DNA of 64,000 nucleotides from positions 1 through 64,000 of the IMG/VR virus record IMGVR_UViG_3300020389_000255; one strand, given 5' to 3'. The stretch comes from a virus. Below, one piece after another: positions 42,161 through 45,552 of this stretch. Both the position numbers and the translations under genes were made by a program. Numbering within the stretch: position 1 is the stretch's first letter; each line of letters starts with the position of its first letter. The notes under the pieces were generated by a model. That model did no database searches and had not been told where the DNA came from. It saw only the letters and a program-made list of their open reading frames with translations.

Positions 42161-43024
42161 TTAATGATTTTGTAAAAGTTGGAATATAGTTTGTGACAAG
42201 GATTGTGCTTGTGCCATCATTGCCAATGCTGTTTGTTGTTTAATTTGATTCACTGACATATCAGTGATTTCTCTCGCCTCATCCAATGCAGTTAAACTAT
42301 TTCGATTGTTTTCTGTTTGCAAGACCATGCCTTCCAAGTTAGTTATAGTAAAATCAAACCTACGGATAGTTGCACCAATTCGTGCTTGATGTTCAATCAA
42401 TTGGTTAAGTGCAGCGTCTAACGTTTCAACTGCATCAAGTGATTTTGATGTATCATCAACTGAACTATCAGAAACAGCAAATAACGTGGGAGTTCCAGCG
42501 ACCTCTTTAGTCTTTCCCAATACATCAGCAGATGCATCACCCAATGATATATTAATTCTTTGATCTGGATCGTCATTAATTCCAATTGCAACTATCTTAT
42601 TAGTAAAATCACCACCTAACAATTCAATACCATTGTATTTGGTTGTAGCAACCACAAACTCAGCTTCTTCCAATAGTTGATTATATTCAGCAGAAAGAAT
42701 CACTCGTTCTTCTTGTGAAGTAGAATCATTTGAAGATTCGACACCAATTTCTCTCAGACGTTCAACAATAGTCCTGACTTGTGCCATTCCAGTATCAGCA
42801 GTAATAAGCAAATCTTGAGAATTCTTGACATTCCGATTTGCTTGTTCTAATGCAACTATCTTATTGGTCATTCGGACGACACTTGCCGAAGCGACACTAT
42901 CATCAGAAAAATTCGGAATCCGTGAACCACTAGAAATCTTCTCTACATTCTTCTCAATATCAGCTGTTGCTTTTTTGTAATTGTTGTATGCGTTGAGCAT
43001 TGCACGTTGTAAACCTTGAATCAT
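42161..43024 (-). CDS. Phage-encoded flagellin homologue
   Basis: 287 aa covering both conserved halves of bacterial flagellin. N-terminal half: SSGSRI at 31-36 followed by Asp41-Asp42, matching the flagellin 'LSSGLRI...DDAAG' site, then ADTGMAQVRTIVERLREIGV and YNGIELLGG. C-terminal half: LDAALNQLIEHQARIGA, then ITNLEGMV and a final helix with AMMAQAQSLSQTIFQLLQ. Domains D2/D3 are absent or minimal. It has its own AGGAG site and lies between gp33 and a group of small genes beside the tmRNA, not in the virion operons. The homology is clear; whether it makes filaments, alters host motility or is a virion part is unknown. Confidence 0.92.
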   Translation of the reverse strand: MIQGLQRAMLNAYNNYKKATADIEKNVEKISSGSRIPNFSDDSVASASVVRMTNKIVALEQANRNVKNSQDLLITADTGMAQVRTIVERLREIGVESSNDSTSQEERVILSAEYNQLLEEAEFVVATTKYNGIELLGGDFTNKIVAIGINDDPDQRINISLGDASADVLGKTKEVAGTPTLFAVSDSSVDDTSKSLDAVETLDAALNQLIEHQARIGATIRRFDFTITNLEGMVLQTENNRNSLTALDEAREITDMSVNQIKQQTALAMMAQAQSLSQTIFQLLQNH

Positions 43025-43582: not shown

Positions 43583-43899
43583 ACAAGTCGTGGTGACTAC
43601 TTATGTCATATCGGTGAGTCACCTGAACCTTTCCTATATCTGCTTGGGCCATATAGACTCTTGGAAATATAGTAGGGGTTTCTGTTGACAGGTACCCCAT
43701 AGACCCCGGCATTACCTATTAGGCAGCCATTTGTAATTCATAATCGTTTCCAATTATTAGTTTGCAACTTCTGAGATGTTGCCACTCCAAATAACCTACT
43801 CTCCATCATCGTCATACCTGTCGAATCCGTTACGCCCCCATTATGGTGGAGGCGGTGGGAGTTGAACCCACGTCCAGTGTATCGACAACTTCGTATCAT
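43583..43899 (-). ncRNA. ssrA: Circularly permuted (two-piece) tmRNA
   Basis: On the minus strand the 3' acceptor piece comes first: a T-arm (GTGGG-TTCAACT-CCCAC) and CCGCCTCCACCA ending at 43844. After four bases (TAAT) the 5' piece begins at 43839 with GGGGGCG, then the hallmark GGATTCGACAGG. The two ends form a perfect 7-bp acceptor stem whose third pair is G-U, the alanine identity element. The tag frame (GGA at 43751 to TAA at 43719) encodes GNDYELQMAA, ending in Ala-Ala with stops TAA and then TAG. The outer limits (43899 and 43583, the latter at a GGTGACT/AGTCACC hairpin) are approximate. It rescues stalled ribosomes and tags products for proteolysis. Confidence 0.93.
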
Positions 43900-43902
43900 C
43901 GG

Positions 43903-44394
43903 TTAAAAGTCCTTAAGATGTTTTTCTAGACTTGATTGTGTTTCACTACCTTCAAAACCAACTCTAACTGAAGGTGAATCTTCAGATTTAAATTCAGGAT
44001 TTTCCTTTTCTAATTTTTCTAATTCCTTCATCTTCATATCATAATCATAATCAGAAATTTCTACATTATCTGGATCTGTATAATATAAATTTTCGTGATA
44101 TTCTAAATAATTTCTCAACGTAGCAATATCATCTTCTGGATCATTCGTAGGAATCCATGTTACCATTGTCGATTTTTCTCCGACATCTACAATACGAGTT
44201 CTCCAATCTATGACATTCTCATCAGGTAGGTTATTGGGTTCAGATTGTCTCAATTCGGTAATGAACGCATTCCAATATTCTCGACCCTTTTCTTCGACAA
44301 TCCATCTATTCCCAATCAAAGATTCATCTTCAACTTGATCTGGAAATCTATTATAAACTTTATACATCATTGATTTATAACTATCAACACTCAT
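43903..44394 (-). CDS. Protein with stand-alone LigA domain Ia (NMN-binding domain)
   Basis: 163 aa. Residues about 92-146 align with the N-terminus of NAD-dependent DNA ligase: LRNYLEYHENLYY, EISDYDYDMKMKELEKLE, then EDSPSVRVG. Residues equivalent to E. coli LigA Tyr22, Asp32, Tyr35 and Asp36 are Tyr104, Asp115, Tyr118 and Asp119. The adenylation domain with KxDG is absent. Residues 1-85 are unrecognised. It is the first gene after a sigma-70 promoter (44427-44455) and lies immediately before the tmRNA. It may bind NAD/NMN or pair with a separately encoded ligase core; neither is shown. Confidence 0.75.
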   Translation of the reverse strand: MSVDSYKSMMYKVYNRFPDQVEDESLIGNRWIVEEKGREYWNAFITELRQSEPNNLPDENVIDWRTRIVDVGEKSTMVTWIPTNDPEDDIATLRNYLEYHENLYYTDPDNVEISDYDYDMKMKELEKLEKENPEFKSEDSPSVRVGFEGSETQSSLEKHLKDF

Positions 44395-44468: not shown

Positions 44469-44882
44469 TTATTCCCCTCTTGTAACAATTAAAATTCGTT
44501 TAATTTGCTCTTCCACAACTTGCTTCCGATTTGGCCAATGTATATATGGATTATTCTCTGAATCTTTTGATAAATTCATGAGTAATGGAATCACCAATTT
44601 TTCTAATGTTTTAAATTTTTCTTGATTTCCCACCGTCAATTCCAACTCCTTTTCTTCAAGGCGAATATCATATTTTTTCTGTGCTACACCTAACACCTCT
44701 TCAAGTTTATTTTCTATTTGTTCCAATTTCTGTGATACATTTTCTGAACTAACAGAAACTTGTTCTAATTTTTCCGTTTGTATTTTTGATTGATCTACTT
44801 GATCACTACTGACAGACTTAATTCCAAAATCAACATTAGTATCAAAATCAAAATCATCAAAATTGAAATCTTTAATATCCAT
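44469..44882 (-). CDS. Conserved T4-like hypothetical, acidic coiled coil
   Basis: 137 aa. Asp/Phe-rich N-terminus (FNFDDFDFDT), a long coiled coil at about 35-85, and NPYIHWPNRKQVVEEQIKRIL near the end. The layout recalls a hypothetical protein of marine T4-like phages, but the function is unknown. It overlaps the nuclease gene by 11 bases. Confidence 0.7.
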   Translation of the reverse strand: MDIKDFNFDDFDFDTNVDFGIKSVSSDQVDQSKIQTEKLEQVSVSSENVSQKLEQIENKLEEVLGVAQKKYDIRLEEKELELTVGNQEKFKTLEKLVIPLLMNLSKDSENNPYIHWPNRKQVVEEQIKRILIVTRGE

Positions 44883-45552
44883 ATGAATTCCTTTGGTAAA
44901 AATGTTTGATTTGTTTTAATAAGGAGTTTGTCCAATTATCTCTATGTTCTACAAATATTTGAGGTTTCTTATCTGTAGGTGCAATAATAACAACCAATTG
45001 AGTAATAGGAAGATCAGTCCTTTCTTCCCACATAATTGAATATGCACACGACTGCATAAAATAATCAGGAATCCATTCTTTCTTTTTTTCTTTCCGTGAA
45101 GTTTTAAAATCTATAATAGATAATCTTCCGTCAAATTCTGCAACACAATCTACTCTCCCAGCAAGTTTCAAATGATCTGACCACAAAGGAACTTCTTGCG
45201 AATGTATATTGTCAATATACCTATCTAATACCGGTTGCATAGTCCGAAATGATTCAATCGCTAAAGGGTTTGAAAATTTACCTTCAAATGAATTATTCAA
45301 ATATTCTTCTACGAGTTTATGTACAGCAGTTCCTTTTGCCGATGCCTTTGTAGAAATCTTATTTGCTTCCTTTACTCCAACCTTTTTACGCCAATCGTTC
45401 AACCCTTTAACTTTAGACGGAAGACTTCCAGTAACAGTAGTCACAGAAGGATATTTTTTATCACCCACCACATAATGACGTTTTTTGTTTATAGTCTCAG
45501 TTATCAACTCAACAAATTCATAACTACCGACATGATTAAAATTTTTCATCAT
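44872..45552 (-). CDS. PD-(D/E)XK exonuclease (RecB/Cas4/MGME1-like)
   Basis: 226 aa. An N-terminal PSVTTVTGSLP loop, KGTAVHKLVEEYL helix, then GRVDCVAEFDGRLSIIDFKTS supplies the GxxD...DFKT nuclease core, and FMQSCAYSIMW gives the motif QxxxY-like helix. It probably trims DNA ends during recombination or repair. It overlaps the lysin gene stop by four bases. Confidence 0.85.
   Translation of the reverse strand: MMKNFNHVGSYEFVELITETINKKRHYVVGDKKYPSVTTVTGSLPSKVKGLNDWRKKVGVKEANKISTKASAKGTAVHKLVEEYLNNSFEGKFSNPLAIESFRTMQPVLDRYIDNIHSQEVPLWSDHLKLAGRVDCVAEFDGRLSIIDFKTSRKEKKKEWIPDYFMQSCAYSIMWEERTDLPITQLVVIIAPTDKKPQIFVEHRDNWTNSLLKQIKHFYQRNSYGY

Follow-up and report, generated by a model that had tools for sequence, protein, structure and literature searches.

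Introduction

Phage-borne permuted tmRNAs are already known. A two-piece tmRNA has been reported on Melnitz, a phage of OM43 (Methylophilales), and on the Pelagibacter phage Mosig; the accessible part of that report counts 53 unique two-piece tmRNA structures in phage genomes, 50 of them from marine or aquatic phages, and proposes ribosome upkeep or the recycling of host proteins as their role (PMC9004378). A later study presents a new permuted model and reports 11,946 sequences of the permuted type as well as 79 from phages, and the portion of its text available gives no minimum spacer length (PMC11915505). Earlier phage tmRNAs, together with an inhibitory form from DS6A, are covered in the available sections of PMC4131195. 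Among permuted tRNAs, the tRNA-Tyr of Thermofilum pendens has an intervening sequence of 1 nt, the removal of which is called an open question in the accessible text of PMC3978253. In the literature searched, as far as its available text extends, we found no description of a collapsed spacer between tmRNA halves, or of minimal spacers recurring among phages.

Here we analyze a tmRNA locus in a stretch of 64,000 bases (the window) from an IMG/VR virus record of 69,658 bases. We conclude that the locus is a real and probably working permuted tmRNA whose spacer lies close to the lower limit.

Results

The permuted tmRNA gene occupies about 43612-43905 on the minus strand of the window. ARAGORN called a permuted tmRNA at 43628-43938 (minus strand), its sole gene on that strand of the window, and read from it the tag GNDYELQMAA, the same peptide that had been read in the initial annotation. 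The covariance-model search proposed there as a check returned the Rfam model RF04321 (tmRNA_permuted) at 43719-43900 (minus strand), scoring 102.1 bits (E 9.4e-19) across the complete model of 213 positions, against a gathering cut-off of 47 bits. The older RF01849 (alpha_tmRNA) matched 43671-43950 (minus strand) with 63 bits, also exceeding its cut-off of 50 bits. Together with the covariation described below, these calls bear out the original proposal of a permuted tmRNA on a phage. The span first assigned, 43583-43899, came with no strand and set the upper bound slightly too low, as the outermost helix strand starts at 43905.

Read 5' to 3' on the minus strand, the precursor begins with a strand of the long P2 helix that joins the two halves (43889-43905), and its outer helix, UAACC/GGUUA, shows compensatory changes. 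Because the stop codon TAA of the upstream ORF (43903-44394, minus strand) supplies the first three bases of this outer helix, the tmRNA gene is packed without a leader. Residues 85-154 of that 163-aa ORF match NAD-dependent DNA ligases in their N-terminal part, and the ORF is possibly a fragment or a split ligase piece. The T-arm, GTGGG-TTCAACT-CCCAC with a canonical T-loop (43855-43871), is placed by the Rfam match and has two compensated pairs and 100% of its cells paired. Rfam match and covariation likewise place the acceptor 3' strand CGCCTCC (43848-43854) and the discriminator A with CCA (ACCA, 43844-43847). The acceptor 3' half and CCA thus come first, followed by the spacer, the 4-nt segment TAAT (43840-43843) lying between ACCA and G1, and then by the 5' half, in which the acceptor 5' strand GGGGGCG (43833-43839), supported by covariation, starts the mRNA-like piece. 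Across this junction 7 of 7 acceptor pairs form, including G3-U70, so that the perfect stem with the G-U alanine identity pair claimed at the outset is present; the ends that had been predicted from sequence, 43844 for CCA and 43839 for G1, are also correct.

Further along the coding piece, ARAGORN places the tag frame at 43719-43751 (GGA AAC GAT TAT GAA TTA CAA ATG GCT GCC TAA); it has a stop codon and ends in a hydrophobic residue plus AA, the -AA ending being common to most of the other tags listed. The initial suggestion that an altered tag might escape the host protease gains no support, since this tag retains the common ending. The conserved 3' element CGGGGTCTATGGGGTACCTGTCAACAGAAACCCCTACT (43671-43708) aligns with the final part of the alpha_tmRNA model. 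The remaining 3' part has a putative extent of 43612-43670, conserved in three viral relatives (L002, L008 and L012), and the coding piece resembles its relatives as far as position 43612 or beyond. When the precursor is folded to minimum energy, the tRNA-like domain forms (z -2.25; 4 of 200 shuffles equally stable), and within it the discriminator A is paired with the base before G1. Promoter and terminator scans near the gene gave counts little above shuffles overall (12 versus 9.6 and 1 versus 0.9, respectively).

Relatives from the same phage group were found on six viral contigs: L002, L008, L012, L394, L395 and L391. Over the compared stretch L002 and L008 are 99.8% identical and L394 and L395 are 100% identical. 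The covariation alignment of the window with L008, L002, L394 and L395 holds four distinct rows. In these four rows 96.6% of cells are paired and 7 of 37 pairs show compensatory changes, a number matched by none of 500 shuffles, with slid controls giving 0-1. Acceptor pairing is retained between the forms GGGGGCG/CGCCTCC and GGGGGTG/CACCTCC. The permuted tmRNA fold is supported by covariation. The four-base gap noted initially is real and is common to relatives as a family trait: the spacer is TAAT in the window, TTAT in L002, L008 and L391, TAT in L394 and L395, and TATAT in L012, its sequence turning over while its length is 3, 4 or 5 nt. The tag is GNDYELQMAA in the window, L002 and L008 and GEYNQLPMAA in L394 and L395; the -MAA ending and the tag frame are retained in the relatives.

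A flagellin-like protein of 287 aa is encoded at 42161-43024 (minus strand; Flagellin_N 7.5e-24, Flagellin_C 9.7e-14). Its relatives occur at eight viral loci with 76-92% identity, and in six of these a permuted tmRNA sits at the same position upstream of the flagellin-like gene; the other two contigs begin 26-39 bases before that gene. The protein had only distant matches in INPHARED (4 records), and identity to proteins of 398 Pseudomonadota genomes was at most about 35%. It is very unlikely that the tmRNA gene was taken from a host and is now a passenger in decay. Its spacer is shorter than in most bacterial genes, as a pseudogene's might be, but diverged relatives show compensatory changes and an intact tag, and the position near the flagellin-like gene is constant in those six of eight loci.

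Host DNA can be included in IMG/VR contigs, and the contig could in principle be bacterial or chimeric, with the gene an ordinary host ssrA. We give this reading hardly any credence: the 69.7-kb record carries T4-type genes (tail protein, helicase loader and exonuclease families and a gp32-like protein), a peptidase-family protein at 48953-51019 matches 463 phage records, mostly of cyanophages, and the arrangement is repeated in related contigs. A PD-(D/E)XK nuclease of the Cas4-like/phage exonuclease type is encoded at 44872-45552 (minus strand). On three other viral contigs (L016, L026 and L028), the 3' end of the permuted tmRNA overlaps a tRNA-Gly (gcc) called by ARAGORN. The window locus confirms that uncultured phages of the T4-like type that encode a flagellin-like protein have a ribosome-rescue RNA of their own.

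The window gene may, as first proposed, be host-derived. Its T-loop is UUCAACU, and most sampled bacterial permuted genes have GGC(A/G)GTA. We did not adopt an alphaproteobacterial filing for the gene: RF01849 gives 63 bits, yet the T-loop is UUCAACU instead of GGC(A/G)GTA. INPHARED held no sequence match to the window tmRNA. The best DNA matches in the 398 Pseudomonadota genomes cover 32-35 bases at 94-97% identity in the 3' arm of tmRNA genes, and come from small-genome bacteria; this search gave mainly matches confined to that arm. ARAGORN identified a one-piece tmRNA with the tag ANDEVELAYAA or ANDDVELAYAA at six of ten such loci fetched, and made no call on the other four (L516, L517, L522 and L524). 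The likeness of the 3' arm, a short and constrained stretch, may reflect convergence.

Two viral scans requiring a canonical T-loop yielded 33 stretches with spacers of 0-12 nt and 54 with spacers of 13-43 nt. The spacer was at most 7 nt in 21 of these 87 viral genes, and in none of the 21 below 4 nt, a proportion drawn solely from these two scans, both of them complete. A wider viral pattern found 71 stretches with a spacer of 0-7 nt; the parse of short-spacer forms omitted L001, L392 and L396 as repeats. Six viral loci (L248, L255, L265, L271, L279 and L282) have a spacer of 2 nt, either AT or AC, and in one of them, L265, no tag was recognized. Among viral genes with the GGC(A/G)GTA T-loop, 31 stretches had spacers of 0-7 nt and at least 120 had spacers of 8-38 nt. 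Of the 32 distinct viral forms with spacers of at most 7 nt, 31 have T or C immediately before G1 and 28 have A at the second base before it; the corresponding figures for longer-spacer forms are 77 and 81 of 113.

The bacterial sample comprised 398 evenly drawn Pseudomonadota genomes, 158 of which matched above the Rfam threshold. Parsed without a T-loop requirement, 136 permuted genes included 2 with a spacer of at most 7 nt; the bulk lay at 22-39 nt, with a median of 30. This count leaves out L231 and L232, which score as standard tmRNAs, L143, which has an ATTGAC motif and was not parsed, and L090, a center picked for its short spacer; the matches fetched were those above 60 bits, plus L232. 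In an order-level sample 54 of 55 loci were parsed, the exception being L479. Short bacterial spacers measured 3 nt (L507), 4 nt (L089/L090), 5 nt (L105 and L494) and 6 nt (L194). L089/L090 belongs to a Rhodocyclaceae MAG and has ubiG-like neighbors by a reading of its ORFs, and the permuted tmRNA L507 has the spacer TGA in genome G469 of ~2.2 Mb.

We rejected the idea that very short spacers are confined to viruses, given that spacers of at most 7 nt occur in 2 of 136 bacterial genes and that L507 has one of 3 nt. When 84,980 species genomes were scanned for spacers of 0-6 nt, a single match came back, but the pattern demanded a canonical T-loop, and nearly all sampled bacterial genes carry another T-loop that cannot match it. 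Short spacers are enriched in phages and are not exclusive to them; the Fisher value for this comparison is descriptive, as the viral contigs are redundant and unevenly sampled and the T-loop types differ. Within the bacterial sample, 7 of the 12 genes from genomes no larger than 2.0 Mb had spacers of at most 13 nt, versus 1 of 124 others (Fisher test), with genome sizes read by hand and two of the seven short-spacer cases (G299 and G367) alike. Short bacterial spacers therefore go with small genomes, and streamlining is a simple alternative cause.

Discussion

We consider it likely that the locus encodes a functional, phage-borne, circularly permuted two-piece tmRNA that is processed by a single RNase P cut followed by trimming. 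The gene would be part of a phage operon and be transcribed into a single precursor that folds, as the covariation shows, into a tRNA-like domain and an mRNA-like domain. Host RNase P would cut before G1 at 43839 and release the 5' piece. The RNA upstream of this cut would end in CCA-UAAU with a free 3'-OH, its four extra bases to be trimmed by exonucleases. The tiny spacer would then do double duty, as a 5' leader for one of the pieces and a 3' trailer for the other. RNase P cleavage leaves a 3'-OH on the leader side; since the leader side here is the CCA-bearing piece plus four bases, one cut with exonuclease trimming would give both pieces. RNase P prefers U at -1, and the T or C before G1 and the preceding A in short-spacer viral forms fit selection for an RNase P site, one that is kept while the rest has been lost.

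The acceptor stem is closed by a loop of only 8 nt (ACCA plus UAAU), which may hinder RNase P. This small loop, and the inhibition of tmRNA by the DS6A type of phage tmRNA, which consists of the tRNA-like domain only (available sections of PMC4131195 and PMC11915505), would suit a decoy: an RNA with a closed or poorly processed acceptor end that stays uncharged, binds SmpB and damps host trans-translation. We think a decoy improbable, because relatives maintain the tag frame and the conserved 3' element, neither of which a decoy needs, and because equally short spacers (3, 4, 5, 5 and 6 nt) occur in bacterial genome contigs.

As a functional tmRNA, and by analogy with its family, the RNA would be charged by host AlaRS via G3-U70 and delivered by host SmpB to stalled ribosomes, where GNDYELQMAA would be appended to the nascent chain. 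No SmpB turned up in four phage records, all fragmentary, in a search that gave a match in 10 of 14 control genomes; the host would accordingly have to supply it. The likely benefit would be that ribosomes are kept available as nonstop mRNAs build up during infection.

More speculatively, and on balance doubtfully, phages may repeatedly push the spacer to the minimum that the host can process (2-5 nt), producing a 'one-cut' tmRNA, for which one cleavage by RNase P would take the place of distinct processing steps at the 5' and 3' ends. If so, the phage RNA may mature faster than the host's own. The natural series of spacers of 2, 3, 4, 5, 6, 7 nt and longer offers a means of measuring the minimum acceptor loop that RNase P processes.

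Among described systems, and as far as the available text of PMC3978253 allows comparison, the window gene shares an acceptor loop of minimal length with the Thermofilum pendens tRNA-Tyr, which differs in being archaeal, re-ligated and a tRNA rather than a tmRNA. Like the genes of Melnitz and Mosig, judged by the accessible part of PMC9004378, it is a permuted tmRNA carried by a T4-like myophage from the sea. The Rfam matches in the window include no glutamine riboswitch. The window gene agrees with RF04321 and RF01849 in giving a full-length match and in its half order, GGAC motif, T-arm, acceptor and 3' element. It departs from the consensus of these models in its spacer, 4 nt versus about 25, and from most sampled bacterial permuted genes in having a canonical T-loop in place of the GGC(A/G)GTA loop.
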